Part shown: positions 539 through 17,729 of the stretch, piece after piece | How positions within the stretch are numbered: the first letter of the stretch is position 1 | Layout of the letters: each line of letters begins with the position of its first letter | NCBI RefSeq assembly: GCF_029215985.1 | Contig: NZ_JAEMVC010000003.1 | Span: forward strand, 1 to 64,000 | Direction of reading: 5' to 3' | Length of the DNA stretch: 64,000 bases | Source: Sulfurimonas sp. SAG-AH-194-C21 | Lineage (GTDB): Bacteria; Campylobacterota; Campylobacteria; Campylobacterales; Sulfurimonadaceae | The notes under the pieces: model-generated | The model's input: only the letters and a program-made list of their open reading frames with translations | Databases searched by the model: none | Told to the model about the DNA's origin: nothing | Translations under genes and position numbers: made by a program

Positions 539-834
539 TATTTAAATTTAGATAATAAAGTAGGTTTGAAACTTGTATCTCTCTCTATAGGTAAGTTTAA
601 TGGTCCTCTTACTTTTTCTAACTCACATAGCTGAAAGTATCCTAGTTCTTTTTCATGTCCATCTACTAAACCGAAACACTCTTCTGTTTTGGGATCAAAT
701 TCAAGAATAAACCAAGTCCAATTGCTATCTGGTTTAAACAACTTCACATAGACTAAAGGATCTTTCATACCTTCTGTAGCATACAACTTTGGTATTATGT
801 CCTTTATTTCTTGTGGTATCAGTGCCTTTCTCAT
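538..834 (-). CDS. DUF2958 domain protein
   Basis: A 98-residue protein covering a whole DUF2958 domain. The family hallmarks are visible: an N-terminal IPKLYATE stretch, a VYVKLF segment, the aromatic WTWF block near residue 40, GLVDGHEKELGYF near 60, and a C-terminal GPLNLPIERD..FKP. DUF2958 proteins are typical cargo of plasmids, integrative elements and phages, usually near single-strand binding or annealing genes; their biochemical role is not established. The gene starts within the stop of the upstream gene (ATGA overlap) and its own stop overlaps the next start (TAATG), so it sits in the middle of a tightly coupled operon. Confidence 0.85.
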   Translation of the reverse strand: MRKALIPQEIKDIIPKLYATEGMKDPLVYVKLFKPDSNWTWFILEFDPKTEECFGLVDGHEKELGYFQLCELEKVRGPLNLPIERDTSFKPTLLSKFK

Positions 835-1901
835 GCTACTTTTTCCTCTACATCTTCTATCTCTTTTAACAGTGTTTCCAACTTGCCATCTATCCTATCT
901 ATCTCCTCTTGTGTAAGTTGCGCTGTAAAAGAAGTATTGAGTTTAAATTTTCTGCCAAATATCTTAGCTAACAGTTCTGTCCCTTTTTTGTAGTCTCCAT
1001 TGGAAAGGTTTAATATCTCTTGTGAGACTCGTAACACTTGAGTTCTTTTGTGATTTGTATTTGATGATGGGGTTTCATTTATCTCTAAGAGAGCTTCCTT
1101 TTCTGCTTGTGTCAGTATCTCTTTTCTTGTAGTTACACTTACATCAGGAAAAAGGGTGTCTTCATCTTCATAGCCATTTTCTAAGGTTTTTAAGGCACTA
1201 GAGAGCTGTACTAGTTTTATTTTGTCCCAACTCTTGGCTTTACCAAATAAATTTTCTACTTTCTCGAGGGATACTTGTAGATTACTTATCTTTTTTAACA
1301 GTAGCTCTCTAGCTTTTACTTCTCCCATATTATTGATGGTAGCCATAGCATTGTTTTTTGCTTCTTCTAGTACCTTAGTCGCTAACCATCTTGGTACAGC
1401 ATTTAATACTACATTTCTAATGGCTTTACTCTGTCCTATCTGGAAGATGATATCTATCCCCCGATCTCCTTCATAAATGTCTTTACCATATTTAGTTTTT
1501 GGACTTTGTTTGTTTTGACGGAAGCTTCTCGAGAGGTTAAAGCCTGTCTCCAAATCGCAAAAGTAAGCTGTAAAGATATAAGCTTTCTCTTGCTCCTCCA
1601 CTTCCACATCTACAAAGCAATTACCAAAATTTCGTACTATCGATAGAGCAGCACCTATGGTTAAACCTTCGATAATACTACCTCCTTGTTTCCAAGAGTA
1701 GATAAATTCTTCTCCTGCTATGCTCGCTTCTTCCACACACTTAGAAATTACTCTATTTAGGTTGCGTGGTTTTATTACCTGCATTGCAGTTACATATCTA
1801 TTTTTAGCTTGAATAGCTCCACCTGTAAAATTATGGTTATTTACTTCTTGTTCTGTAATTACTATATTTGGCTCTGTTGTACTTTTTTTGTCTATCAGCA
1901 T
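831..1901 (-). CDS. Putative phage-type single-strand annealing/recombination protein
   Basis: A 356-residue soluble protein. Residues about 60-185 resemble a phage protein family often found beside RecE/Cas4-like exonucleases: a GLTIGAALSIVRNFGN block, a FTAYFCDLETGFN segment, then an acidic/aromatic region ending IGQSKAIRNVVLNAVP. I infer a role like RecT/Erf (annealing of single strands after resection) mainly from the neighbouring nuclease and this pattern. The C-terminal third is lysine/glutamate rich and probably variable. The start has a clean AAAGGAG site. The gene lies 29 bases after the nuclease and overlaps the DUF2958 gene. It could instead be an essential recombination function of unknown type, so the family call is tentative. 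Confidence 0.6.
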   Translation of the reverse strand: MLIDKKSTTEPNIVITEQEVNNHNFTGGAIQAKNRYVTAMQVIKPRNLNRVISKCVEEASIAGEEFIYSWKQGGSIIEGLTIGAALSIVRNFGNCFVDVEVEEQEKAYIFTAYFCDLETGFNLSRSFRQNKQSPKTKYGKDIYEGDRGIDIIFQIGQSKAIRNVVLNAVPRWLATKVLEEAKNNAMATINNMGEVKARELLLKKISNLQVSLEKVENLFGKAKSWDKIKLVQLSSALKTLENGYEDEDTLFPDVSVTTRKEILTQAEKEALLEINETPSSNTNHKRTQVLRVSQEILNLSNGDYKKGTELLAKIFGRKFKLNTSFTAQLTQEEIDRIDGKLETLLKEIEDVEEKVA

Positions 1902-1930
1902 ATAATCTCCTTTATCTGCTATTTAGTTGT

Positions 1931-2701
1931 TTAAGCATACATATACTCACTATTCTGCAAGTGAAATAGGTTGGCTGGATCTAAGATGGGTTCTCCATTT
2001 ACAGCTCGATAAAAGTCAGCTATTCTACTAGCTAACAATTCTAAAATCTCATCTGCTTTTTCTTCTTGGAGGTCTACCTTTACTATGCGTGTGCGTGTAT
2101 CTAGCGTTGATGTAGGTTTCACTATCTCATGGATACTCGCGCCTGCTATACTCATCCCTGCTTTTTTTGCCAAGAGACTATAAACGGAAAGTTGGAGTTC
2201 ATGTTTTAGTTGGAGTGATTTACTGAGCATTCCTGCTGTTTTTATGTCTACAAGGGTATCATCTTGAGTTATTAAGTCTATAGTCCCTCGCACTCCTGCT
2301 ATGTAAGGATTATTATCAAACTTCACTTCTACATACTGTTCTGTATACTTAGGTAAGATTGTAGGCATTATCTCTTTGTGGTAGGCACTAGTTAATCTAC
2401 TTGCAAGATTAGCAAACTCATTCACATCCTCCTCCTCTGTCCACTGTGTAGTAGCACTAAGTTTTAAAAACTCTTCACTTGTAGCTTCTAGTACTAGCTG
2501 TTGGTTTGGAAGTGTCCCTGTCTTTATAAACTCTTCGTAGCCTACATTCAGACCATGGTGTACAGCGGTACCTAAAGTTAGATAACTTTTGGGAGCCGTG
2601 TACTCTTTTAAAATATGGGTTTGATACCACTCATAGGGATTTTTCAAGAATGTTTTTATGCTACTGGGTCGTATCCATATCTTGTCACTTTGTGGTAACA
2701 T
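1931..2701 (-). CDS. PD-(D/E)XK superfamily exonuclease (Cas4/RecB-like)
   Basis: A 256-residue protein with the ordered motifs of a RecB/Cas4-type nuclease: an N-terminal PSSIKTFLKNPYEWY, then GTAVHHGL with a candidate metal-binding histidine, GTIDLI carrying the first acidic residue, VDIKTA giving the D-x-K core, and a downstream QLSVYSLLA helix matching the Q-x3-Y motif. Such enzymes resect DNA ends; next to a candidate annealing protein this suggests a Red/RecET-like recombination pair used by the mobile element. I see no iron-sulfur cysteine cluster, unlike true Cas4, and there is no CRISPR array. The start follows AAGGAG and overlaps the stop of a 24-codon reading frame as TAATG. Confidence 0.82.
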   Translation of the reverse strand: MLPQSDKIWIRPSSIKTFLKNPYEWYQTHILKEYTAPKSYLTLGTAVHHGLNVGYEEFIKTGTLPNQQLVLEATSEEFLKLSATTQWTEEEDVNEFANLASRLTSAYHKEIMPTILPKYTEQYVEVKFDNNPYIAGVRGTIDLITQDDTLVDIKTAGMLSKSLQLKHELQLSVYSLLAKKAGMSIAGASIHEIVKPTSTLDTRTRIVKVDLQEEKADEILELLASRIADFYRAVNGEPILDPANLFHLQNSEYMYA

Positions 2702-2775
2702 TACTTCTCCTTAACAACTGGGCATTTGCATTCATCTATCTTATTCCAGTTAAGATCTATATTAAAATTTATCAC
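2701..2775 (-). CDS. Candidate 24-residue leader/microprotein upstream of the nuclease
   Basis: A GTG-started frame of 24 codons with a very strong GGAGG ribosome binding site. It ends TAATG on the nuclease start, so it could couple translation of the nuclease. It contains a C-x-C pair. It is short enough to be a regulatory leader rather than a functional protein; support is only the binding site and the overlap. Confidence 0.35.
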   Translation of the reverse strand: MINFNIDLNWNKIDECKCPVVKEK

Positions 2776-2791
2776 TATACTTTCCTCCTTT

Positions 2792-2917
2792 TTAGTCATG
2801 GTAGTTACTACTGCAACCACCGATAGAGTTTGTGAACTGGTGTCCTCTTATTCGTTCTAATCTAACTCTTCTAGCAGGTGTCATCCTGTCGAAGTAGGCT
2901 TGTTTGGGGTCATACAT
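2792..2917 (-). CDS. Candidate 41-residue basic microprotein
   Basis: ATG start preceded by AAAGGA. The peptide begins MYDPKQAYFDRMTPARR and is rich in arginine over residues 15-24, suggesting nucleic-acid contact. It lies in the same direction as the exonuclease operon with 18 bases to the next frame. No family recognised. Confidence 0.45.
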   Translation of the reverse strand: MYDPKQAYFDRMTPARRVRLERIRGHQFTNSIGGCSSNYHD

Positions 2918-2935
2918 AATTTTCCTTTGATGTGT

Positions 2936-3067
2936 TCACTCTACAGGTAGATAAGGGTTGTAGGTAGGGGTGTTGGCTGGGCTAGCACTTATTAGGTCTG
3001 GAAAAAAGTTTAATCTTTTGCATACCTCTCTTTCATTTTCATGGTAAGTATTTATCTGTTTGTCCAT
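2936..3067 (-). CDS. Candidate 43-residue microprotein, first gene of recombination operon
   Basis: ATG start with an AAGGAG binding site seven bases upstream. The peptide is hydrophilic in its first half and proline/asparagine rich at the end. Upstream, on the minus strand, an AT-rich stretch with TATATTATT-like sequence (about 3095-3110) could be the operon promoter. No homology recognised; it appears to be the first gene of the run that continues to position 149. Confidence 0.45.
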   Translation of the reverse strand: MDKQINTYHENEREVCKRLNFFPDLISASPANTPTYNPYLPVE

Positions 3068-3219
3068 ACTTCTCCTTTCATTGGTATTTACTCTTATCAA
3101 TAATATATATTTTAAAGGTCATTAGTTTCGGTTTTAAAATTTTTATAAATCCATAAGTGTAAAAAAAAAAGGAGGTACCTAACAAGTAAGTTTGTAGGGG
3201 GATAAAGGGAATTTAACTC

Positions 3220-3235
3220 AGATTTAGCTAAATCT
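3220..3235. promoter_or_regulatory. Perfect 16-bp palindrome over the RHH gene stop
   Basis: AGATTTAGCTAAATCT is fully self-complementary and covers the stop codon of the ribbon-helix-helix gene. It may be a short hairpin ending the par operon or a binding site for the dimeric RHH protein. There is no loop, so a protein site is at least as plausible as a terminator. Confidence 0.35.
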
Positions 3236-3428
3236 TAGGTTTATGTGATAAATATTCTTTTATTAGCTTTCTAATGAGAGTGCTAACTGCTATGTCTACC
3301 TTTGTACACACCAACCGTAAAGCTTCATTATCAGCTTTATCTATGTAGACAGATATTCGTACCTTACTCTTTGAACTGTCAGGGCGACCACCTAAGGAAT
3401 GTTCTAGGTCTTTCATAGAAGGTAGCAT
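3228..3428 (-). CDS. Ribbon-helix-helix DNA-binding protein, partner of ParA
   Basis: A 66-residue protein whose second half is a ribbon-helix-helix fold: the strand KVRISVYID (residues about 22-30), then two helices covering NEALRLVCTKVDIAVSTLIRKLIKEYL. The first 20 residues are a flexible tail that may touch ParA, as in small plasmid partition proteins. Its ATG overlaps the ParA stop (TAATG) behind a strong AAGGAGG site, so the pair is co-translated. Expected to bind a centromere-like or operator site and to autorepress. Confidence 0.8.
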   Translation of the reverse strand: MLPSMKDLEHSLGGRPDSSKSKVRISVYIDKADNEALRLVCTKVDIAVSTLIRKLIKEYLSHKPKI

Positions 3429-4060
3429 TAGATACCTCCTTTTAAGCTTATTATCTGTTCTGTTAAATCGATAATTTCCTCATAAATTTCATTGTGAAGA
3501 TTTTTAGTCCTTTGGAGCATATAGTTACCCTTTTCATGATGAATATTTTGGTACCATTTACTTCCATCCCTGGCTATGTGTTTAAAGAGCGTTGTATTTT
3601 TCATCATATAGATACTACATTCGTCAATATATGAGCTAAGTTGTGCTGCAACTTCTAAGAACTCCTTTTCGTTAGCGACTCTATTTACTATGATAAAGAT
3701 ATTTTCTATCTCAGCCTGTTGCACAAACTGTATAGTTTCTATAGTTGCACTTATACTTCTTGCATCTGTTAAGGTAGGGATGATTACTCCATCAGCTAGT
3801 TTTATAGCATGCATAACTTTAGGGTCTACTAATCCAGTCATAGCACCCATGTCAAAGACTATATCTCTGTCTCCTTTTAAATATCGTGAGGGAATCTTCT
3901 TGAGTTTAGAATCTATCAAGTGAGTGTTAATCGTCTGGAGCCGGCTTAAATCTGTCACTACATCATTAGTAACTAAAGTGTAGTTATTGTTGAGGGCTAT
4001 ATTTGTAGCTATGGAGGTTTTTCCAACCCCACCTTTTATGGAAATGACTGTCAAATACAT
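3428..4060 (-). CDS. ParA-family partition ATPase
   Basis: A 210-residue single-domain ParA/MinD-type ATPase. The deviant Walker A KGGVGKTS lies at residues 9-16, a DIVFDMGA motif takes the place of the usual D-x-P-P/G segment near residue 70, and VIIPTLTDA and IIVNRV strands follow. This size fits plasmid ParA proteins that pair with a small RHH protein, which is encoded immediately downstream. It indicates that the island derives from, or can exist as, an extrachromosomal element. Two inverted repeats upstream are probable operators. Confidence 0.85.
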   Translation of the reverse strand: MYLTVISIKGGVGKTSIATNIALNNNYTLVTNDVVTDLSRLQTINTHLIDSKLKKIPSRYLKGDRDIVFDMGAMTGLVDPKVMHAIKLADGVIIPTLTDARSISATIETIQFVQQAEIENIFIIVNRVANEKEFLEVAAQLSSYIDECSIYMMKNTTLFKHIARDGSKWYQNIHHEKGNYMLQRTKNLHNEIYEEIIDLTEQIISLKGGI

Positions 4061-4083
4061 GTTGTATCCTTTTTTAGTTTATT

Positions 4084-4110
4084 TAAGAAGAAGTTTAAAA
4101 TTTCTTCTTA
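4084..4110. promoter_or_regulatory. 9-bp inverted repeat upstream of parA
   Basis: TAAGAAGAA and TTCTTCTTA are separated by nine bases, 24 bases before the ParA start. In this position it would lie in the 5' leader or at the promoter and could serve as an operator for the RHH protein. Confidence 0.4.
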
Positions 4111-4130
4111 TTTTTATGTTCTAAAAAATG

Positions 4131-4154
4131 GACTACAAAAGTACTTTTGTGGTC
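4131..4154. promoter_or_regulatory. 24-bp near-perfect palindrome, probable par operator
   Basis: The central 16 bases (4135-4150, ACAAAAGTACTTTTGT) are a perfect palindrome; the flanks GAC and GTC extend the symmetry to 24 bases with one mismatched pair. It is about 70 bases upstream of the ParA start, a typical place for the operator or partition site of a ParA/RHH module. Confidence 0.5.
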
Positions 4155-4174
4155 TACAATATGAGTTAGAGTTT

Positions 4175-4665
4175 TTAACTAGCTAGTTTTACTCGTTTAA
4201 TATATTCACCTAAAGATTTAGCTGTACCAAATCCTAAATGCAGCTTAGATATCTTGTTCACAGGGACACCTAACTTTACTAACTCTCTAATTCACTCATA
4301 AGGGAAAACATGGTGAGCATAACTTTGTTTTGCATATCGTTGATGTTATTTTTGTTAAGTATCATATTTTGTTTTATGGCTATGAGTTTTATGCTTTTAG
4401 CTATTAAAACATTGACTATGTCAAAAAGACCTGATAAAGAACGAGCTAGCCGACTTAATTCGCTAACTATCAAGGTGTCTTCTTCTTTTAAAGTGGATAT
4501 AAGTTCATCTATTCTTCTATCTTTGGTAGACTTTTTGCTACTCATACTAATCTGGATGAAGCTGACTTTACCAAGATTATGTTTGTTAGCATAGTCTAGT
4601 ATCTCATGCTTTTGGTTCTCTACAGTCTGTTTTTCTGTACTTACTCTTATGTAACCTAGTGTCAT
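4175..4665 (-). pseudogene. Serine resolvase/invertase, broken by internal deletion and frameshift
   Basis: The N-terminal catalytic domain of a small serine recombinase is intact: YIRVSTEKQ with the nucleophile serine, LSRLARS with the active-site arginines, and a helix ending SLMSELES. The frame then stops. In a different frame the sequence continues with IRELVKLGVPVNKISKLHLG...SLGEYIKRVKLAS, which is the C-terminal helix-turn-helix of the same family. The linker between them (about 30-40 residues in relatives) is missing. The junction GAATTAGAGAG can encode either the end of the catalytic helix or the start of the DNA-binding part, so a slip between two such repeats explains the break. Probably inactive. 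Confidence 0.75.
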
Positions 4666-6694: not shown

Positions 6695-7570
6695 TTGGCA
6701 GTAGCACATGATAAACTAGCTATGAGATTAGGTCTAATCTTAACTAAACTCAACAACGGTGAAAAACTCTTTACAAAAGAGTTAGCTGAAGAGTTTGGTG
6801 TGACAGTTAGAACAGTAGAGCGAGACATATCTGAGAGACTAGCATACCTACCTCTAAAAAAAGAGGGAACAGGTTATACACTAGAAGCTTATTACTTAGG
6901 TAAACTAACTTTTAATGATATACAAAACTTTGCAGCTCTGAGCGGTATCAAAGAGCTGTTCCCTACCTTAGAGGAGAGCTTTTTAAAAAATGTACTTGAT
7001 AGTGTGGTTAACTCAGCCTACCTAATAAAAGGGCATAACTACACAGATACTAGTAAGATGGGTGAAGAGTTTACACTCTATGAGCAAGCTATCAATGACA
7101 GGCTATGCTTAGAGTTTAAGTACAAAGCTAAACAGAGACTAGTTAAACCCTACAAACTTTTAAACAACAAAGGTGTCTGGTATCTAGCAGGAGTAGAGGG
7201 AGAAAAACTCAAAACATTTTTTCTTGAAAACATAGTAAAACCTACCTTGAGTGATGAGACCTACACTTACGATAGTGAAGTGGTAAACAAACTAAAAACT
7301 GAAGATAACATCTGGTTCTCAGATGAACAGTTTGAAGTAGTGTTAAAGGTAGATAAGAGTGTGGCTAGTTACTTCACTCGAAGAAATATCATACCAAACC
7401 AAGTAGTCATTAAAAACTTAGAAGACGGAGGAATCATCGTATCAACAAAAGTAGGACATATGAATCAGATACTTCCTATCGTGAGATATTGGATACCAAA
7501 TGTTAGAGTTGTTTCACCGGAGAGTTTACAGGTGGAGTTGGAAGAAAGTTTAAAAGAATATTTAATATAA
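6695..7570 (+). CDS. WYL-domain transcriptional regulator
   Basis: A 291-residue regulator: winged helix-turn-helix at residues about 8-60 (ELAEEFGVTVRTVERDI), a WYL domain around 130-195 containing the namesake GVWYLAG, and a C-terminal WCX-like region. WYL proteins often repress defence operons and are thought to sense nucleic acid or nucleotide ligands. The start is TTG behind AGAGGA; an ATG lies at codon 10. Nine bases separate it from the first dynamin-like gene, so it heads that operon. The last 132 bases occur again at 12856-12987, marking a second, deleted WYL gene. Confidence 0.9.
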   Translation: MAVAHDKLAMRLGLILTKLNNGEKLFTKELAEEFGVTVRTVERDISERLAYLPLKKEGTGYTLEAYYLGKLTFNDIQNFAALSGIKELFPTLEESFLKNVLDSVVNSAYLIKGHNYTDTSKMGEEFTLYEQAINDRLCLEFKYKAKQRLVKPYKLLNNKGVWYLAGVEGEKLKTFFLENIVKPTLSDETYTYDSEVVNKLKTEDNIWFSDEQFEVVLKVDKSVASYFTRRNIIPNQVVIKNLEDGGIIVSTKVGHMNQILPIVRYWIPNVRVVSPESLQVELEESLKEYLI

Positions 7571-7579
7571 GGAATTTTT

Positions 7580-9544
7580 ATGAGTGTAAATGTAATAGAT
7601 AGGTTGAATGAAAAAAAATTAGCTAAGAAAAGTGAAACAGAAGCTATTTTAGAGGTTATTAAAAGATTTAGTAAAGATAATAGCTTTTGTTTTGATTTAG
7701 ATTGGACTGAAAAAACATTAAATGGACTATTGCAAAAGTTTTCAAGAGATACAATAAATATATCAGTTGTTGCTGAGGTAAGTAGTGGGAAAAGCACATT
7801 TTTAAATGCTTTAGTTTTTGGTAATCAGGTTTTAGAATCAAAAATAGGTGAAACAACAGCAAAAGTATTTCATATAAAATATGGTAAGGATTATAGTGTT
7901 GATGGTAAAACAATGAATACTATAGATGATTTAAAAGAGGCTATTTCTAAACAAAATACAACAAATCTTAAAAGTATAAATGCAGAAGAAGATATCAAAG
8001 AAATTGAGTCAAATATAACTTTGCCTAATGAAAATTTGGAAAAAGGAATAGAACTATATGACACTCCTGGATTTGGAACTGTTAATGAAAAAGTAATGAC
8101 CATACTTTTAAAAGATGCCATTAGTAAGTCAGATGGTGTTATTTTATTACTTGATATATCCCAAGGTTTGAAAAAAAACGAAAAGAATTTTGTTAAGGAT
8201 ATGATAAATAAAATACCATCAAATAAAAGATTTATTATTTTAAATAAATACGATAGTGTTATTGATGAAGATGATTTAGCTTTAAAAACAAAAGAAGAAA
8301 TTGCTTTAGAAATTGAAAGTGTAATTAAAAGTGTAAAAGATAATTTAAGAGACTTGCAAGAAGATAAAAATGAAAATCTTGAAGTATTTTACCTTTCAGC
8401 TAAAAAAGCCTTGATAGGTAAGCTTAAAAACACTCCAAAAGTATTAGAAGAAAGTAGGTTTCCACTTTTTGAAAATAAATTTTGGGATAGAATGGTATCA
8501 GCTAAAGCAGAAGTATTTGATGATGCAATTCTCACTTTAGAACGAACAAAAGATGCCTTGATTAATAGCCTGAATTATGAAAAGATGTCTATTGAAGATT
8601 CTATAAAAGAGACAGAGTCTCTGCTAGATGCGGGTATTGAAGTTGAAAGTAAAATGTCTAGTATTATAAGATTTCAAACAATAATTCAAAATTCAATAGC
8701 AGAAATACGATTGGAAACACAAAAAAGTAGCACTAGCAATAGAAGCACACTAGAGGTAGAAATAAAATCTGCTTTAAAATCAAATATCAAGCCACAGCTT
8801 GATAACATAGGCTTTTGGGATAAGTTACAATTTTGGAAGTTGAAAGAAAAATATGAAGAAGCTGTAAAGAAAGGTTTATCCAATTCTGAAAAAGATTTTG
8901 AGAATATTATACAAAATTTTATGGAAAAAAGCTTTCAACATCTTTCAAGAAAAGAGAAAGCCTCAAATAAAACTATTGTAAGTATTAATGCTTCAATCCA
9001 AGAGATAAATAGTATAAATAATAAAATCAACCTAAAATTAATAGAAGAGATAAAATTTGGTTTTGATATAGATAGCAACGGGGAATTAAAACTGACAGAT
9101 GGTAACTCAGGTTATCATGCAGGAGATTTTTTAAAAGATTTGGGCATAAGTGTAGGTGTTGGAGGTATTGCACTTGTTGGTTTGGAATTTGGGTTGGCAA
9201 GACTTTTACCTTTAATAGCTGGTCCTATAGGTTGGGTCGTTTCAGGAATATTAGCTTTATTTACTCTTAGTAAAGCCTCAGATAAAAATAATGAAATTTT
9301 AGAAAAAATTGTGGAACAATCTTTGCCTATTATTCTAAAAGAACTACAAAGTATACTCTCATCAATCGATTCTTTTGTACTCCAAAATATTAGTGTACTA
9401 TCACAAAATTTAAATCTAATCGATGAGAGAATACGTAATATTAAAGAATCTCTTAATAATAAAAACGAGTTAGAAAGTAACAAAAAAGCTTTATCTCAAA
9501 AAATAAGTGTTTTAAATAAATTTATAACAGATATCGAAAGATGA
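7580..9544 (+). CDS. Dynamin-like GTPase 1
   Basis: A 654-residue bacterial dynamin-family protein. G1 is AEVSSGKS (residues 65-72), the G2 threonine is in GETTAKV (about 90-96), G3 is DTPGFG (161-166), and G4 is NKYD (222-225). A long helical bundle/stalk follows, and a hydrophobic double segment near residues 515-570 (GIALVGLEFGL...PIGWVVSGILALF) could insert in membrane as the paddle does in other dynamins. The C-terminus returns to coiled coil. Multiple dynamin-like genes side by side typically act as hetero-oligomers on membranes. It is coupled to the next GTPase by an ATGA overlap. Antiphage function is inferred from context (WYL, HEPN, toxin-antitoxin). Confidence 0.9.
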   Translation: MSVNVIDRLNEKKLAKKSETEAILEVIKRFSKDNSFCFDLDWTEKTLNGLLQKFSRDTINISVVAEVSSGKSTFLNALVFGNQVLESKIGETTAKVFHIKYGKDYSVDGKTMNTIDDLKEAISKQNTTNLKSINAEEDIKEIESNITLPNENLEKGIELYDTPGFGTVNEKVMTILLKDAISKSDGVILLLDISQGLKKNEKNFVKDMINKIPSNKRFIILNKYDSVIDEDDLALKTKEEIALEIESVIKSVKDNLRDLQEDKNENLEVFYLSAKKALIGKLKNTPKVLEESRFPLFENKFWDRMVSAKAEVFDDAILTLERTKDALINSLNYEKMSIEDSIKETESLLDAGIEVESKMSSIIRFQTIIQNSIAEIRLETQKSSTSNRSTLEVEIKSALKSNIKPQLDNIGFWDKLQFWKLKEKYEEAVKKGLSNSEKDFENIIQNFMEKSFQHLSRKEKASNKTIVSINASIQEINSINNKINLKLIEEIKFGFDIDSNGELKLTDGNSGYHAGDFLKDLGISVGVGGIALVGLEFGLARLLPLIAGPIGWVVSGILALFTLSKASDKNNEILEKIVEQSLPIILKELQSILSSIDSFVLQNISVLSQNLNLIDERIRNIKESLNNKNELESNKKALSQKISVLNKFITDIER

Positions 9545-10989
9545 AAAAAGAAAAACGATTAGAGGCTAGTCTTGATGAGCTAATATTATTATTTGAGCCA
9601 TATGATATTGATATTGCAGAGTTAGAAAATCTTAAACTTTGGATGAACTTACCTCTATATATATCAGTAATAGCAGAAGTAAGTAGAGGTAAGAGTACAT
9701 TTTTAAATGCTTTATTATTCAAAGAATTAATGTTAGAGTGTAGAAATGGAGAAACAACTGCCAATGTCTTTATGATTGGTTATGAGAAACATTTTGATCA
9801 CAAAGCTCAACGAGAATATATTAAGAAAATAAATTGCAACAGTATTGAAGATATAGACAATTTAGAAGATGTTGGAATTGTCATAAATAGTAATAATTCA
9901 AAATATACTAAAGATATTTTTTGTGATACACCGGGTTTTAATACAAGTAATGAAGACCATATGCAGACAATGATAAATGAATTTTTACCTATTTCAAGCT
10001 GTGTTATATTTATAATAGATATATCTAAAGGTATTACCAAGGAAGAGTTAAAACAATTAAAGAATGTGAAGGAACAAGGTGTAGAAGATGTAATTATAGT
10101 TGCAAATAAATTCGATATGGTTAGAGATGAATTCCAAAACGAAAAAGACATAGATTTCCATCTTAAAAAAATAGAACAAGAAATTTCCAAAGTGATTTCA
10201 CTTAACAACCCTATCTTTTATGTGGCTTCTAAAGAAGCCTTAGCTGGTTATATTACTAAAAATAAAGAGAAGATAGCAAACAGCAGGTTTCCAATTTTTG
10301 AAACTTTTTTCGTACATCAATTAAAAAAAATTAGAGAAAAGAAAGTTGAAGACATTTCAAGGGTAGTTATGCTCTATAATGATGAAAATATGAAGAATAA
10401 GTTAGAGATAGATGTTCTGAAAACACATCTGGATTTAGTTAAAAAGCAAGAGTATCTTCCTACTATAGAGTCTTTGGAAAATATTGTTACTACAATGTTG
10501 TCTTTCGCTGAAGAACGAGACTATATTTCTTTTGTTAACTTCTTTGGTGGGCTTGATAGTGATGCTAAAGGGTATGTTACTACTTTAAAAAAATATAATA
10601 ATCAAATATCTGAAGCTTTGGAGAAATGCTTAACATTTTTTTATAGTATCATTCAGTTAGAGATAGAAAGAGATAATCTTCTTAGCAAAGTAGACAATAC
10701 CAATATAATGGATAAACTTTGTTTAAATGAGGTAGAAGAAATCGCTAGTATACAAGGATATATTACGCTTAAGGATAATTTTTTTACAGCAATAAATGAT
10801 GTATCTATTGCGTCTATAGATTTAACCTCACCTCTTATATCATTAGGTACAGAATTGTCTATAATAGATGTTAAAGATATTAGTATTTTTGGGGAGACTG
10901 AAAACTTACAGAAAGAATATAAATTAGTACACAACAAAATTAAAAAATTGAAATCAAGTATAATTGGGGCAAAACATGTATTTAACTAA
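9541..10989 (+). CDS. Dynamin-like GTPase 2
   Basis: A 482-residue GTPase with G1 AEVSRGKS (residues 45-52), GETTANV for G2, DTPGFN for G3 and ANKFD for G4. It lacks the hydrophobic paddle seen in the first protein, and its C-terminal part is helical. It may be the soluble partner in a hetero-oligomeric dynamin complex, as with the dissimilar subunits of LeoA/LeoBC-type loci. Its start overlaps the upstream stop and its end overlaps the next start by 14 bases, so the three proteins are made together. Confidence 0.88.
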   Translation: MKKEKRLEASLDELILLFEPYDIDIAELENLKLWMNLPLYISVIAEVSRGKSTFLNALLFKELMLECRNGETTANVFMIGYEKHFDHKAQREYIKKINCNSIEDIDNLEDVGIVINSNNSKYTKDIFCDTPGFNTSNEDHMQTMINEFLPISSCVIFIIDISKGITKEELKQLKNVKEQGVEDVIIVANKFDMVRDEFQNEKDIDFHLKKIEQEISKVISLNNPIFYVASKEALAGYITKNKEKIANSRFPIFETFFVHQLKKIREKKVEDISRVVMLYNDENMKNKLEIDVLKTHLDLVKKQEYLPTIESLENIVTTMLSFAEERDYISFVNFFGGLDSDAKGYVTTLKKYNNQISEALEKCLTFFYSIIQLEIERDNLLSKVDNTNIMDKLCLNEVEEIASIQGYITLKDNFFTAINDVSIASIDLTSPLISLGTELSIIDVKDISIFGETENLQKEYKLVHNKIKKLKSSIIGAKHVFN

Positions 10990-12556
10990 AGAAATAATAG
11001 AGTTAGAAGAAAGTGTAAAAACATTAGAAAATGAAAACATAGATTTTTTTATAAACTTAGTTAAAAAATTATCTAATAAAAAAAGTGTAGAAGTTGTTTT
11101 TACAGGAACATTATCTAATGGAAAAAGTAGTGTCATAAATGCTATTTTACAAGAGAACATATTACAAGTAGGTATTGGTTCTACCACCGCTAAGATAACT
11201 TATATAACTGAAGGTAATGATAGTTTAACAGGTTTTAATATAGCAGGAGAAAGTTGTGTAAAAGAACTTAACCAAGCTAATATAAAAGAATTGAATGAAG
11301 ATTCAAATATTGAATACATTGAAATAGGAACTAAAAACTTTAATCATAAAAATATCACTTTTGTAGATAGCCCAGGCATAAATGATATAGATGAATTAAG
11401 GGAAAGTGTAAGTTATTCTTATGTACCACTTGCTGATATAGTTGTATTTGTTATTGATATTTCAAAAGGTTTTACAGCAGATGAAAAAAGATTTTTTGAT
11501 GATAAAATTATAAAAAGTCATAAAGAAAAAATATTTATTATCTTAAATGGATTAGATAAGGTAGACGGAGAGGATTTGTCCCCTGTTTTAAATCATGTAT
11601 TACTTGAAGGTTACAAAGTTTTCCCTTTATCTGCAAAAAAATACTTAGTAGGTACTTTAAGTAATGATAATGAAAAAATCGAAAAGAGTAGGTTCCTTGA
11701 ATTTTTGATTGAATTTAATAAGTATATAGACAGCACAGATCCATATACTATATTATCACATCGAATAATAAACTCCTTAAAAAGTCTTGATAAGCTTACT
11801 ACTATACAAATTAATACAATGATTGAAAACATAAATAAATCTAAAGTAGATTTAGAAATAGAATTAAAAGAAAATAAGGTATTACTTGAAGTAGAAGAAT
11901 TAAAAGTTCAAGAGATACAAGATAACCTAAGTTCTGAAATAAGTGCTATAAAAGAGTTTGTTAGTATTAAACTAAACGAACTAGGCTTACAAGTACAAGG
12001 GATGGAAGATACAGATGAAATACTAAAGGGTATTGAAAAGGTTGTTGCAGAAATTATTACATATAGTAAAAATAAATTAGGTACACTTGATATTGACATT
12101 GGTATGTTAAATACTATGCTAAATACTATATTAAAATATTTTAAAACAATTGTTTTTGCTATTTCATATGCAGTTGAAACTTACGTAACAAAGAATCCGT
12201 CTGGAAAAATTTCTAGTGGATTAAAAGTTTTACTAAAAGGACTAAAAAATGCTCCCTTTATTAAAAAAATGCTTTCTAATACTAATAGAATATCATTCGA
12301 TAGAAGAATAAAAGAAATACTCAAAGAAATTGAAGAACACTTTAATCAGGAACTTACTAGAGTAGAGAAAGAAAAAAAGCAAGAGTTAGAATTTGAAATA
12401 TTAGGTGAAATTAAATCAATTATTAGTGCTTATGAGAACTCTATACATCAAAAAGAAGATAAAAAGTCTACCATAGAAAACGAAATAAGTTTTTTTGGAG
12501 ATAATTTAAAAAATATTCAATCTAGGATTATTGCTGTCTCTAAGAATTATGAGTAA
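10976..12556 (+). CDS. Dynamin-like GTPase 3
   Basis: A 526-residue protein with G1 GTLSNGKS (residues 44-51), GSTTAKI for G2, DSPGIND for G3 and LNGLDK in place of the G4 N/T-KxD, an unusual substitution that may weaken guanine selectivity. A moderately hydrophobic stretch (KTIVFAISYAV) lies in the C-terminal half and coiled coils flank it. I choose the ATG at 10976, which has GGGG six bases upstream, over a TTG four codons earlier. The stop overlaps the ATG of a HEPN gene remnant (TAATG), showing the HEPN gene was once translated with this operon. Confidence 0.87.
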   Translation: MYLTKEIIELEESVKTLENENIDFFINLVKKLSNKKSVEVVFTGTLSNGKSSVINAILQENILQVGIGSTTAKITYITEGNDSLTGFNIAGESCVKELNQANIKELNEDSNIEYIEIGTKNFNHKNITFVDSPGINDIDELRESVSYSYVPLADIVVFVIDISKGFTADEKRFFDDKIIKSHKEKIFIILNGLDKVDGEDLSPVLNHVLLEGYKVFPLSAKKYLVGTLSNDNEKIEKSRFLEFLIEFNKYIDSTDPYTILSHRIINSLKSLDKLTTIQINTMIENINKSKVDLEIELKENKVLLEVEELKVQEIQDNLSSEISAIKEFVSIKLNELGLQVQGMEDTDEILKGIEKVVAEIITYSKNKLGTLDIDIGMLNTMLNTILKYFKTIVFAISYAVETYVTKNPSGKISSGLKVLLKGLKNAPFIKKMLSNTNRISFDRRIKEILKEIEEHFNQELTRVEKEKKQELEFEILGEIKSIISAYENSIHQKEDKKSTIENEISFFGDNLKNIQSRIIAVSKNYE

Positions 12557-12690
12557 TGAATAACCTACTAACCTTATCCAATCCCTGCTACTGCAACAGA
12601 AATGGAATAGAGCAACACCTAGAAAACCTAAAAGCGAATGGTGTGTAAAGTTGGTTCTGAACTCAGAGACTATGCTTGCTCACATTAAAA
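12556..12690 (+). pseudogene. 5' remnant of a HEPN-motif gene (first cassette)
   Basis: The sequence beginning ATGAATAACC translates to MNNLLTLSNPCYCNRNGIEQ and onward to HLENLKANGV, matching the first ~29 residues of the intact protein encoded at 16632 (MSNLLTLYNPYYNKNVIEQ onward). A small deletion then shifts frame and stops it, but homology continues at DNA level through the segment encoding ELRDYA. It is more diverged than a fresh duplicate, so it descends from a related but distinct HEPN gene. Homology ends near 12690 where an IS remnant begins. Confidence 0.75.
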
Positions 12691-12848
12691 TATTGGAATA
12701 TATAGAGATGTTCTACAATTCAAAAAGAAGGCATAGTTATTGAGATTATATTTCACCAAATGAGTTTGAAAAAAGATATAATGAAAAGTCTTTAAAAAAA
12801 TAGGTTTTTACTGGATTAGTAATTGTCTAGTTTATAGGGGATATTCCA
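12691..12848 (+). mobile_element. 3' remnant of an IS3-family transposase and its terminal end
   Basis: The frame from 12691 reads ILEYIEMFYNSKRRHSY, a stop, then DYISPNEFEKRY, which is the hallmark C-terminus of IS3-family OrfB transposases (Y-N-x-K-R-R-H-S and SPxEFE). After the natural stop (12801-12803) comes a tail with TGTCTAGTTTAT and GGGGATATTCC, probably the right inverted repeat (about 12824-12848). Everything upstream of the last ~35 codons is gone. It joins a HEPN start to a WYL end, so an IS-mediated deletion is the likely cause of the scar. Confidence 0.75.
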
Positions 12849-12855
12849 AGTTATA

Positions 12856-12987
12856 GTATCAACAAAAGTAGGACATATGAATCAGATACTTCCTATCGTG
12901 AGATACTGGATACCAAATGTTAGAGTTGTTTCACCTGAGAGTTTACAGGTGGAGTTGGAAGAAAGTTTAAAAGAATATTTAGTATAA
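12856..12987 (+). pseudogene. 3' remnant of a second WYL regulator gene (second cassette)
   Basis: These 132 bases align without gaps to 7439-7570, the last 43 codons plus stop of the intact WYL gene. I count three differences: two are synonymous and one is a conservative Ile to Val change. The frame is open to its stop, followed 11 bases later by the next gene, just as the intact WYL gene is followed nine bases later by its first cargo gene. The substitutions suggest that both copies evolved under selection and that this one lost its front part recently. Confidence 0.85.
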
Positions 12988-12998
12988 AGGTATATTAT

Positions 12999-14072
12999 AT
13001 GAAAAGTGAATTTAATGATATAGTTGATAAAAGCATAAATACTTTATTATCAGATAATCTAAAAGAAGATTTAGTTAAAACAATAAAAGATAACACAAAA
13101 TTGGATTTCCAAAAATCTCAACAAATAGTGAATGATATTGTAAATACAATAGAATTGGTTGATAAAAACTATAAAGATTTAAAAAGAGCTAAAGGTAATG
13201 GTAAGACAAGGACTCAATGGCTAGAAGATAAAGTAGACGTAGTTGTTAAAGATTTATCAAATGAAGCTAAAAATAAGTTTGTTCAAGAAATAAAAGATAA
13301 CCTCGATACATCAAATAATGATATGCTCATAAAGGTATTTGATGAAAGTGTTGATATATCAAAAAGATTACCAAATGCTAAGTATGAAGATTTAAATAAA
13401 AAAGTTATCATTGATGATTTTAGTAGACAACTTAAAGACAATACTATTTTAGGTGCTATAATCAATGAAGATGGCAAATTTGAAATTGATACAAAACACA
13501 AAGAGATAAAAGCAGTAAAAGAGTATTTTGAAGCAAAGCTTGATTCTGATTATGACAAGCAATTTAAAACAGCCGTTTCAGTAGCTACAGAAATAGCTAA
13601 AAATAAAGATTTATTACCACCATCTTTAAAAGATAAAACACCAGAAGAGATAAGTATGATTGTCGATAAAGGTGTAACATCTGCTAAAATAGCTTTTAAG
13701 TTAGCAAATGGTGAACTAAATGCTATGGATGCAGTAGAATATACAATAGATAGAAATACAGCTATTTTAAATTCTGCCATAGTTACAGCTACTACAAAAT
13801 ATGGTGGAGTAGCAGGTGGAAAAGTTGGTGGATTTATTGGTAGTATATTTGGACCTGCTGGAACAATAGCAGGAACAGCAATTGGTACAGTTGTTGGAAA
13901 GTTTGCAGGTAATTTTGTTGGTGGACTAATTAACAAAGGTGTTAAAAAAATAGCAAGTGTTGCAAAGTCTGTTGCTAGTAGTGTTGTAAGTGGTGTTAAA
14001 TCTGTAGTTAGCAGTGTAGCAAGTGGGGTTAGTTCATTTTGTAGTGGAGTTGCTTCATTCTTCGGATTTTAA
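12999..14072 (+). CDS. Glycine-zipper membrane-active protein, putative effector
   Basis: A 357-residue protein. Residues 1-255 are hydrophilic and helical. Residues 269-310 form a glycine zipper (GGVAGG, GGFIGSIFGPAG, GTAIGTVVG, AGNFVGG), and residues 316-357 are a low-complexity Ser/Val/Ala amphipathic tail ending in SFFGF. Such C-termini are seen in pore-forming or membrane-inserting toxins. No signal peptide, so it would act on the inner membrane from the cytoplasm. It is the first gene of a four-gene unit ending in an AAA+ ATPase, which could hold it inactive or assemble it. No named family recognised; the effector role is inference. Confidence 0.8.
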   Translation: MKSEFNDIVDKSINTLLSDNLKEDLVKTIKDNTKLDFQKSQQIVNDIVNTIELVDKNYKDLKRAKGNGKTRTQWLEDKVDVVVKDLSNEAKNKFVQEIKDNLDTSNNDMLIKVFDESVDISKRLPNAKYEDLNKKVIIDDFSRQLKDNTILGAIINEDGKFEIDTKHKEIKAVKEYFEAKLDSDYDKQFKTAVSVATEIAKNKDLLPPSLKDKTPEEISMIVDKGVTSAKIAFKLANGELNAMDAVEYTIDRNTAILNSAIVTATTKYGGVAGGKVGGFIGSIFGPAGTIAGTAIGTVVGKFAGNFVGGLINKGVKKIASVAKSVASSVVSGVKSVVSSVASGVSSFCSGVASFFGF

Positions 14073-14088
14073 AAAAGGATAAAAGAGA

Positions 14089-14769
14089 ATGGCTAAAACA
14101 ATAAAATTTAATCTTTTATTGGATGATAATCCAGTAAGAGATATAGAAAGTTTACAAAATAATTTTTGTATAGATGATATACTTGAAGTTTATGCAAATG
14201 GTTTACTTCAAAAATGGCTTAAAGTGCGTGGGCTTGATGAGTATTTAGAAAAAGTAGAAAATATCAAAAAAGATAGTTCGATTATAGTTGAACTTATAAA
14301 AATATTTGACATTAAAAAAGATGATAAAGAGATAAGAGAAAGTATCTATTCTCTTGAATTTCAAGAAAATAGAAAAAAGTCTCTTGAAAACTATAATATT
14401 AAAGATGATGATTTAAAAAATAGAATTAAAGAGTATCATAAAGAGTATGAGGAACTCATAGAAGCTATTATCGAGCATAAAGAAAATATGGCATTTTTAA
14501 AAGTTGCTTCAAAAGAGATAAGTGATAAATATTTAAAACTATTTGAGCTTGATTATAAAGATAGTTATGAATTATATAAAGAAAAATCACCATTTATGAT
14601 ATATGCTATTTTAATGAATGATAAGCTGAGTTTTATGTTTATGAAAAATAATATTATTGTACAAGATTTATATAAAAACTTTATTTTAAACACTCAACCA
14701 AAAGTTGATAATTTCTTTTATGATAATTTTAAAATATTTAAAAAATTAGAGGATAATACAAATGATTAG
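14089..14769 (+). CDS. Hypothetical protein of the AAA+ operon, 226 residues
   Basis: A charged, helical, soluble protein with a central coiled-coil-like region (KNRIKEYHKEYEELIEAIIE) and aromatic residues in its C-terminal third (SYELYKEKSPFMIYAIL, FFYDNFKIF). No recognised motif. It starts 16 bases after the putative effector gene and its end overlaps the next start by eight bases, which suggests stoichiometric production, perhaps as an adaptor or chaperone between effector and ATPase. Confidence 0.75.
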   Translation: MAKTIKFNLLLDDNPVRDIESLQNNFCIDDILEVYANGLLQKWLKVRGLDEYLEKVENIKKDSSIIVELIKIFDIKKDDKEIRESIYSLEFQENRKKSLENYNIKDDDLKNRIKEYHKEYEELIEAIIEHKENMAFLKVASKEISDKYLKLFELDYKDSYELYKEKSPFMIYAILMNDKLSFMFMKNNIIVQDLYKNFILNTQPKVDNFFYDNFKIFKKLEDNTND

Positions 14770-15130
14770 TTCAGTCTTAGGAAGCATAAATACTAGTAAT
14801 GAAATTTATGATTTACTAAATGGAATAGCTGAAGAAAAAATAGAAAATAATGATATTAAAGAAAAACAACAAAAAGCCTTAGTATTAGTTAAAGAAAATA
14901 TTGGACTCATTGAATTTAAAGGTGAAACAGATGCCTATTGGAAAGATTTAGAAACATCAGATGTAAAAGTGATGGTTCTATCAATTCCAGCAAATACATT
15001 TATTAGAAGCGCTAATGATTTAAAGCAAGAATTATCAGCAGAAGATGTAAATGGAAATTTTTTAATTTTAGATGGTTTAGCTTATAAAAGCAATATTAAC
15101 ACCAAATCAATAGTATATATGAAAGTATAA
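14762..15130 (+). CDS. Hypothetical protein of the AAA+ operon, 122 residues
   Basis: A small protein with a helical N-terminal half and a beta-rich C-terminal half (VKVMVLSIPANTFIRSANDL...GNFLILDGLAY). No family recognised. It overlaps the preceding gene and abuts the AAA+ gene without a gap, so it is translationally coupled on both sides. A role as a small partner of the ATPase is inferred from this alone. Confidence 0.72.
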   Translation: MISSVLGSINTSNEIYDLLNGIAEEKIENNDIKEKQQKALVLVKENIGLIEFKGETDAYWKDLETSDVKVMVLSIPANTFIRSANDLKQELSAEDVNGNFLILDGLAYKSNINTKSIVYMKV

Positions 15131-16615
15131 ATGATGAATGTAGTAGATAAATTATCATCTTATATAGAAGCACTTAGACCCATACTATATATACCAACAT
15201 TTGATTTTAATTCATTTGATAATATCATAAAAGACATATCATCAAAGAGTAAAATTTATGAATTTAATGAGGGATTAGGATATGTTAATTTTGAAACAAA
15301 AAACCAAGAAACAGCATACTCTCTTGAAGAATTTTTAAATCTATTTTTATCAGAACAAACTCAACCAGTTTATTTAGTCTTAAAAGATGTACATAATTTG
15401 ATAGACAATCATATAATCATATCTCTTTTAAAATCAATAGCACTAAAAACCATATATGAAGATGATTATTATGTAACTATCTTTATTGTTTCTACTAAAT
15501 TAAATATACCTATTGAATTAGAAAAACTCATAACAATTTATGATACACCACTACCAAATAGAGTAAAAATTATAGATACAATTAACGATTTTTCTCAAAG
15601 TATGAATATATCTATTGATACACATCTTATAAATGAATTGGCATTATCTTTAAAAGGTTTTAGTGAATTTGAAATAATTCAGATTTTAAATCTAGCTTAT
15701 CAAAAAAGTGGAAGTATTGAAACAAAAGATACACAGCTTATACTTGAAGAGAAAGAGCAGATTATCAAAAAATCAGGAATGATAGAGATACTTAATTTTA
15801 AAGAGGGTATTAATGACATTGGTGGACTTGATAATTTAAAAGAGTGGTTAAACAATAAATCTAAAATATTCAATAATCTTGAAAGAGCTTTAGAGTTTGG
15901 AGTAGAAACACCAAGTGGAATGCTAATAGTAGGAATGCCAGGATGTGGAAAAAGTTTAACTGCAAAAGCTACTGCAAGACTTTTTAATGTACCACTGCTT
16001 AGACTTGATATTGGAAAACTTTTAGGTAAATATGTAGGAGAAAGTGAAGAAAATATGCGAAGAGCCATAGGAATGGCAGAAGCCGTTAGTCCTTGTGTTC
16101 TTTGGATTGATGAGATAGAAAAAGCATTTGCAGGAGCTGGAGATAGTGGAGGAAATGAAGTAACAACTAGACTTTTTGGATATTTTCTAACTTGGATGCA
16201 AGAGAAAAAAAGTTCTGTTTTTGTAGTAGCCACATCCAATGATATTTCAAATTTACCACCAGAGTTTTTAAGAAAAGGTAGATTTGATGAGATATTTTTT
16301 GTTGATTTCCCAAATGATGAAGAGAGAAAAAATATCATAGAACTTCATCTTAAAAAAAGAAAAAAATGGAATAAAGATATTGACACTATTAAATTACTAA
16401 AAGAAACTGTTGGATATAGTGGTGCAGATATAGAGGCAGTTATAAAAGATACTATTGAAAAAGCTTTTATAAATGGATGGAAAGAGATACGAACTAAAAA
16501 TATTTTAGATGAGTTGGCAGATACTAAACCGATGTCTGTATCTTTGAAAGATAAAATAGAAACCTTAGGGAAGACTTTAGATAAGCTTAATGTTAAAAAT
16601 GCGAGTAAAACTTGA
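15131..16615 (+). CDS. Ycf46-like AAA+ ATPase
   Basis: A 494-residue protein with a degenerate N-terminal ATPase-like half and a canonical C-terminal AAA+ module: Walker A GMPGCGKS (268-275), pore-loop/Walker B region with CVLWIDEIE (322-330), sensor 1 ATSN (367-370), arginine-finger segment RKGRFDE (381-387). The lead-in GINDIGGLDNLKEWL and the pattern LLRLDIGKLLGKYVGESEENMR match the Ycf46 clade, whose bacterial members have largely unknown roles. No protease domain or zinc site, so it is a remodeller rather than FtsH. It closes the four-gene unit and is 16 bases from the HEPN gene. Confidence 0.88.
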   Translation: MMNVVDKLSSYIEALRPILYIPTFDFNSFDNIIKDISSKSKIYEFNEGLGYVNFETKNQETAYSLEEFLNLFLSEQTQPVYLVLKDVHNLIDNHIIISLLKSIALKTIYEDDYYVTIFIVSTKLNIPIELEKLITIYDTPLPNRVKIIDTINDFSQSMNISIDTHLINELALSLKGFSEFEIIQILNLAYQKSGSIETKDTQLILEEKEQIIKKSGMIEILNFKEGINDIGGLDNLKEWLNNKSKIFNNLERALEFGVETPSGMLIVGMPGCGKSLTAKATARLFNVPLLRLDIGKLLGKYVGESEENMRRAIGMAEAVSPCVLWIDEIEKAFAGAGDSGGNEVTTRLFGYFLTWMQEKKSSVFVVATSNDISNLPPEFLRKGRFDEIFFVDFPNDEERKNIIELHLKKRKKWNKDIDTIKLLKETVGYSGADIEAVIKDTIEKAFINGWKEIRTKNILDELADTKPMSVSLKDKIETLGKTLDKLNVKNASKT

Positions 16616-16631
16616 TAGAAGATAAAACATA

Positions 16632-17729
16632 ATGTCTAACCTACTAACCCTATACAACCCCTATTACAACAAAAATGTAATAGAACAACACCTAGAACTT
16701 CTAAAAGAGAATGGTATTGTAGCTTTTGGTAAGGTTCGCTCTAAACTCAGAGACTATGCTCACCCACATCAAGATATCTTGGATGGTATTTATACTGACA
16801 CCTCTAGAGAGATGCCAACACAGCTATTTTTGACTGATTACAACAGCATCTATGTAGCCAATGTAATATCTATAAATAAAGATATTAAGTTTATCAAAGT
16901 ACCAAAGTATTATGAAGAGTTAGAAGTAGAGTACTGGTTTGTATTTGATGACTTGAGACTCATAGCTCATAAAGATTTTGAACTCATACGAGATAACATT
17001 ATCTCTAATTTCAAGGCTACAAACTTCAACAATAGAACCTATGCTATTTATGGTAATGAATATGTCTATCCTATGCAAGTAACTATGAAAGAAGAGATAA
17101 ACTACTTTGAAAAAGATGATTCCTCATTTAAATTTTACACCAATATATTTAAATCAGAAGAACAGCTAGTGATGAAAAAAAATCTCATAGAGTATAACTT
17201 TGGAAAAAACATATTTTATAATCTAGCACCAAACTCCCAAGACAACATCATAAGTGCAGAGATAGAGTATCTGCAGAACAAGAACAATCCTCTGTATGAC
17301 TTTAGTTCTGTCATAGTGAAGTACTCAAAAGCAGTAGAACTAGAACTCTACCTCTTTATGCGAACTATCTTTGCTGGTTTAATGGAAAAAGAGAAGAGGC
17401 TGAGTAAAGTGGCTTATTCTGTACAGGGCAGAGATTATGTCCTCAAAGATATCTTAACAAAAAAAGTAAACTATGGAACTTATGGATACCTACTTAGAAA
17501 TTATGAGATAAAAGATGCTATCCATAGTAAAGGGTATGAGAGTAACTTAAAATATTTTATACTCACGGAGATACCGCACTTCATCAGAACCATGCAAAAT
17601 GTGCGAAATGAGTCAGTACATGGAGATACAACAACATTAGAGAAATGTGAAGAGATACGCGATGTAGTCATAGGTATAGGAAGAAGCGGGATACTTGTAG
17701 AGTTTGGTAGATATCTAAAGTTTTTGTAA
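16632..17729 (+). CDS. HEPN-motif protein, putative RNase effector (intact copy)
   Basis: A 365-residue soluble protein. The C-terminal region carries RNESVH (R325 to H330), an R-N-x3-H arrangement diagnostic of HEPN ribonucleases, inside a helical region (PHFIRTMQNVRNESVHG). The N-terminal ~120 residues (GIVAFGKVRSKLRDY...QLFLTDYNSIYVANVISI) are beta-rich and may be a PUA/EVE-like nucleic-acid sensor; this is a weak guess. Start of a related gene survives at 12556, showing the family sits at the end of each WYL-headed cassette. It could be an abortive-infection RNase. Its codon and base composition are closer to the WYL gene than to the cargo genes. Confidence 0.75.
   Translation: MSNLLTLYNPYYNKNVIEQHLELLKENGIVAFGKVRSKLRDYAHPHQDILDGIYTDTSREMPTQLFLTDYNSIYVANVISINKDIKFIKVPKYYEELEVEYWFVFDDLRLIAHKDFELIRDNIISNFKATNFNNRTYAIYGNEYVYPMQVTMKEEINYFEKDDSSFKFYTNIFKSEEQLVMKKNLIEYNFGKNIFYNLAPNSQDNIISAEIEYLQNKNNPLYDFSSVIVKYSKAVELELYLFMRTIFAGLMEKEKRLSKVAYSVQGRDYVLKDILTKKVNYGTYGYLLRNYEIKDAIHSKGYESNLKYFILTEIPHFIRTMQNVRNESVHGDTTTLEKCEEIRDVVIGIGRSGILVEFGRYLKFL

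Follow-up and report, generated by a model that had tools for sequence, protein, structure and literature searches.

Between positions 12556 and 12987 of a 64,000-nucleotide stretch of DNA from Sulfurimonas sp. SAG-AH-194-C21 (here called the window), three gene fragments adjoin: the start of a HEPN gene, the tail of an IS3-family insertion sequence (IS), and the end of a gene encoding a WYL regulator. A first-pass annotation had described these fragments as a scar left by an insertion followed by an adjacent deletion. The fragments are real, far beyond what chance would deliver. They are best explained, and probably correctly, by insertion of the IS into a WYL gene (WYL2), deletion from an upstream HEPN gene (HEPN1) into the IS, and decay. 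The scar itself is routine IS-associated decay. Its interest is as a fossil of the boundary between two defence-like cassettes, which suggests that cassettes were stacked and then fused, one WYL and one HEPN being kept.

The scar lies within a row of genes (6695 to 17729) where every gene, from WYL1 through HEPN2, is on the + strand, as read from the open reading frames of the window and their Pfam matches. The features of the row are:

6695 to 7570, + strand: WYL1, intact HTH-WYL-WCX regulator, head of cassette A (Pfam HTH_11, WYL and WCX)
7580 to 9544, + strand: dynA, dynamin-like GTPase, cargo of cassette A (Pfam Dynamin_N 4e-19; PADLOC LeoBC 1e-18)
9541 to 10989, + strand: dynB, dynamin-like GTPase, cargo of cassette A (Pfam Dynamin_N 1e-13)
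10964 to 12556, + strand: dynC, dynamin-like GTPase, cargo of cassette A (Pfam Dynamin_N 7e-23; PADLOC LeoA 5e-11)
12556 to 12685, + strand: 5' remnant of HEPN1, putatively of the HP0729 family, about 43 codons, frameshifted (DNA similarity to HEPN2)
12686 to 12848, + strand: 3' end of an IS3-family element, holding the final 38 orfB codons and their stop, with an intact right end (92% to a 1292-bp IS; Pfam rve_2)
12822 to 12848, + strand: right terminal inverted repeat (TIR) of the IS, ATTGTCTAGTTTATAGGGGATATTCCA, 26 of 27 bases matching the perfect 27-bp TIR of the complete element
12849 to 12987, + strand: 3' remnant of WYL2, the final 45 codons, with homology clear from 12853 on (97% DNA identity to WYL1; codon comparison)
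12999 to 14072, + strand: glycine-zipper protein that opens the cargo of cassette B (Pfam glycine-zipper, weak, E 0.002)
14089 to 14769, + strand: cargo of cassette B, open frame of 226 aa, no significant Pfam match
14762 to 15130, + strand: cargo of cassette B, open frame of 122 aa
15131 to 16615, + strand: AAA ATPase of the CDC48/FtsH class, cargo of cassette B, related to IetA (Pfam AAA 3e-31; PADLOC IetA 4e-30)
16632 to 17729, + strand: HEPN2, intact HP0729-family HEPN protein, tail of cassette B (NCBIfam NF041917 6e-130)

The presumed link of this row to defence comes from PADLOC profile matches to LeoA, LeoBC and IetA. Cassette A resembles the LeoABC clusters of dynamin-like GTPases in PADLOC in that it holds three co-directional dynamin-like GTPases that match the LeoA and LeoBC profiles. 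It differs in its weak, partial scores (1e-18 down to 8e-4, several covering only parts of the proteins), and in its WYL and HEPN partners. Both cargo blocks (7580 to 16615) are about 27% GC, against 33-36% for WYL1 and HEPN2. This difference is clear in the window; as a general trend it was rejected, as its sign holds in just six of nine loci. Upstream, at 831 to 4665, genes labelled by eye as a RecT-like protein, a PD-(D/E)XK-type nuclease, a ParA-like ATPase and a truncated resolvase are possibly the remains of a mobile element.

The middle fragment of the scar (12686 to 12848) matches, at 92% identity (E ~1e-63), the final 163 bases of a complete IS (1292 bp) from a congener, G032, and is 94% identical to an IS copy in G066. 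Its alignment to seven IS copies is gap-free and runs exactly to the last base of the element, 12848. A 40-residue peptide that it encodes matches Pfam rve_2 (E 1.4e-6). The IS3-type transposase tail and probable terminal repeat that the first-pass annotation had read between 12691 and 12848 are therefore confirmed by a strong match. Related complete elements are present in multiple copies in congeners (the genus-mates among the search matches include records named Sulfurimonas), with 92-94% identity to the scar tail. The complete G032 element carries orfA, orfB and perfect 27-bp inverted repeats, the three copies fetched being identical; intact reading frames of complete relatives match NCBIfam transpos_IS3 (orfB, E 2e-104).

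In these intact relatives the marks of the two-frame orfA/orfB type of IS3 element are found. One of them, L069, has an orfB of the DDE type with an rve core, preceded by an HTH orfA (HTH_Tnp_1) in another frame, and perfect 27-bp TG...CA repeats, from which the right end in the scar is one base off. Among six complete copies examined for a 3-bp target duplication (L020, L026, L069, L126, L127, L128), two have one (ACT in L069, GAT in L126) and four do not; the scar is without a left end. The window differs from the family in holding only the last 163 bases, the end of orfB without orfA, and in a premature TGA at 12741-12743, the transposase stop being at 12801-12803. Because four of the six congener copies lack the duplication, this IS would seem often to be linked to rearrangement, as in the 14 deletions linked to IS150, none of which has target duplications (PMC11708052).

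A complete IS with the same terminal sequence, which the annotation had suggested seeking in this genome, was not found in its assembly (88% complete). The only other relic there is a 45-bp left end of a related IS (G000:C12:27678-27721; L004:1511-1555). The only other rve gene in the genome, on contig C43, was considered as a copy and rejected, since it matches just 84 bases at 74%.

The right fragment (12853 to 13002) is 95% identical, over 150 bp, to the end of the intact WYL gene at 7436 to 7583. Over the coding part (12853 to 12987, against 7436 to 7570 of WYL1) the DNA identity is 97%, covering 45 codons and a stop; five codons differ, three of them synonymously. Contig C15 ends in a WYL N-terminus, which was rejected as the missing 5' part of WYL2, since it belongs to another WYL subfamily (45% to WYL1, 63% to that other subfamily). 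Short C-terminal WYL pieces in the congeners G119, G125, G009 and G123 were rejected as parallels; they are mostly of that other subfamily, and have no intact twin nearby.

The left fragment (12554 to 12693) is 75% identical in DNA to the start of the intact HEPN gene (16630 to 16777; E 6e-25). Its ATG, at 12556, overlaps the stop of dynC, and an 11-base deletion near codon 31 shifts its frame. HEPN2 itself is a clear member of the HP0729 family, scoring 433.6 bits against NF041917 (cut-off 250) and carrying the RNxxxH motif that is kept in all 21 family members that cover the region. The remnant differs in keeping only about 43 N-terminal codons. Its motif region is deleted, and its assignment to the family is a probable one, made through its DNA similarity to HEPN2. 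The annotation had named both outer fragments correctly; it counted the HEPN start short, at about 30 codons, and put the WYL end at 44. A scan of viral contigs with a HEPN alignment returned zero relatives. In the literature, one paper names HP0729, as a fast-evolving gene only.

The two edges of the IS fragment are of different kinds. The right edge is a genuine IS end. Because the WYL similarity starts no more than four bases from it, the simplest reading is that the IS inserted near codon 245 of a WYL gene. The left edge falls within orfB, some 1129 bases in from the left end of the IS. Here, HEPN similarity reaches 12693 and IS similarity begins at 12686, so that about 8 bases (12686-12693) are common to both. 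A canonical adjacent deletion made by a transposase starts at the IS end and normally leaves the IS whole (PMC11708052); the deletion in the scar does neither. In the IS150 deletions of the E. coli long-term experiment (PMC11708052), as in the scar, an IS3-family element stands at the edge of the deletion. There, however, the IS stays beside the deletion, while in the scar the deletion enters the IS. With a left edge inside orfB and some 8 shared bases, a deletion that arose by illegitimate recombination at a short stretch common to both sides, and that reached into the IS, appears to fit better than a transposase-driven adjacent deletion. The logic of insertion followed by deletion in the first-pass annotation therefore holds; its type of deletion does not.

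A history that would produce the scar begins with two cassettes arranged head to tail, WYL1-dynA-dynB-dynC-HEPN1 and WYL2-glycine zipper-orf-orf-AAA-HEPN2, with WYL2 and HEPN1 presumably complete. WYL2 would have received an IS3-family element of ~1.29 kb, inserted in sense at about codon 245. Later, a deletion would have begun near codon 43 of HEPN1 and reached into the orfB of that element; it would have joined its two ends at the short shared sequence and removed the rest of HEPN1, the intergenic stretch, the 5' part of WYL2, and ~87% of the IS. The leftover scar would then have decayed, acquiring a stop codon and a frameshift. This would have deprived cassette B of its regulator and cassette A of its HEPN, giving one co-directional row with WYL1 before it and HEPN2 behind. 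The two cassettes now likely share WYL1 and HEPN2. No terminator-like site is predicted in the scar, so read-through across it, and with it joint expression of the row, would be possible.

Against this history, the undeleted locus or an intact second WYL was found in no close relative, nor was the same cargo with an undeleted boundary. Further, a distant genome (G164, locus L112) holds a chimera of similar layout in which no IS was seen. There, a chimeric open frame of 129 residues comes after an intact WYL and a GTPase gene; the frame and the intact twins of both its parts are at L112:1555-4534 and 16402-17592. It opens with 241 bp from the start of a DUF445 gene, of which an intact copy lies 12 kb further on (95% identity), and continues with 154 bp of a WYL 3' end (93% identity to the local WYL); the two similarities overlap by ~14 bases. 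As in the window, the start of a late gene is joined to the end of the head gene. Such boundary scars can therefore arise where no IS is involved, and in the window, too, the truncation may have had another cause than the IS. A HEPN 5' fragment in L118 was rejected as a further parallel; it is a local tandem duplication of 437 bp (98.6%; L118:14546-15400) that precedes an intact HEPN gene.

The chimera in L112 is what might be expected if new cassettes came in through recombination at the 3' end of WYL, an event in which the IS had no part. Here, a circularised or imported piece (WYL 3' end, dynABC, HEPN 5' end) would enter the WYL of cassette B by one crossover. This would place an intact WYL before the new cargo and the displaced WYL 3' end behind it, so that WYL2 was never complete; the IS would have landed at the boundary later and lost its left part. 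Complete second WYL copies are indeed rare, with two copies of this clade in only one of 49 genomes. The WYL ends of the window are 97% alike and the HEPN starts just 75%, which speaks for such an exchange and against a simple duplication of a cassette. Cassette A, however, contains no integrase or circle-forming gene among its open reading frames and Pfam matches, and the L112 chimera is one case in ~60 loci examined. Moreover, the WYL similarity in the scar ends right at the IS end, as if the IS had cut a longer WYL. We regard this route as rather unlikely.

An error of assembly is a further rival reading. The window lies on a contig of 113 kb in a draft of 103 contigs, 88% complete; the join rests on that assembly, and the cassette is described here from its sequence. 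IS ends and repeats are usual points of misjoining, and several contigs of congeners stop inside this IS; short reads in a metagenome bin might have been joined wrongly at the end of the IS or over the WYL repeat of 135 bp. Each piece, however, carries private changes (the premature TGA, the 11-base deletion, the WYL differences) that are in no intact copy of the assembly. Reads from intact copies cannot therefore have made these changes, and an artefact is highly improbable. Nearly as improbable is a scar with a working role, such as that of a promoter, a leader or a small RNA serving cassette B. No other long non-coding gap interrupts the row (this one is 442 bp), and promoter parts can be provided by IS ends. 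The only + strand promoter-like site listed in or by it (12967-12996) is weak, however, and such sites across the region are about as frequent as in shuffled sequence (81 found, 67.8 expected). Each of the two coding remnants either has a decayed frame or has lost its start. Nor has any relative kept the sequence: the junction is in none of 135 congeners and in no viral contig, on which ground an ancestral junction conserved for its function, which the annotation had considered, was rejected. The scar itself is most likely without function. Insertion into WYL2, deletion and decay thus remains the probable history.

Undeleted HEPN-WYL boundaries exist in relatives. In a survey of 347 class-level genomes (WYL clade threshold, E at most 1e-50), 55 genomes carried the HEPN family and 49 the WYL clade, with 23 carrying both. 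In 21 of these 23, HEPN and WYL lie on the same strand no more than 16 kb apart. This is far beyond chance (binomial <1e-34, for 21 of 22 genomes with an assumed chance of 1-2% per genome). An intact HEPN followed by an intact WYL on the same strand occurs in 8 of the 347 genomes, with gaps of 27 bp to 1.5 kb, none of them in the genus of the window. WYL follows directly in G245 (27 bp), G242 (91 bp) and G163 (205 bp); it follows at 0.7-1.5 kb, with an opposite-strand or small gene between, in G197, G234, G395, G308 and G337. Because undeleted HEPN-to-WYL junctions exist across Campylobacterota, the scar can be read as the boundary of two tandem WYL-cargo-HEPN cassettes. Of the undeleted arrangement that the annotation had suggested seeking in relatives, then, HEPN followed by WYL is found; an intact HEPN1-IS-WYL2 in a close relative is not.

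More interesting than the scar is this modular architecture, which is little described; a search of the literature on WYL-dynamin-HEPN cassettes found nothing. WYL-headed cargo ending in HEPN is seen at L070, L083, L086, L110, L113 and L115. It is possible, and we suggest it only tentatively, that in Campylobacterota a WYL head and an HP0729-type HEPN tail form the constant ends of exchangeable cassettes. Recombination at the 3' end of WYL would swap or stack their cargos (dynamin-like, glycine-zipper, AAA, HerA-like), and stacked cassettes would be fused under one regulator as the HEPN-WYL boundary between them was repeatedly lost, the scar and the L112 chimera being two footprints. Should the pattern hold, new cargo systems could be found across Campylobacterota by way of the conserved end genes.

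Both orders, WYL-cargo-HEPN and cargo-HEPN-WYL, occur (window 6695-17729; L070, L083, L086, L100-L119). Between WYL and HEPN, the cargo varies by locus, including dynamin-like GTPases and others. Some of it, by labels read off the sequences, looks HerA-like or patatin-like.
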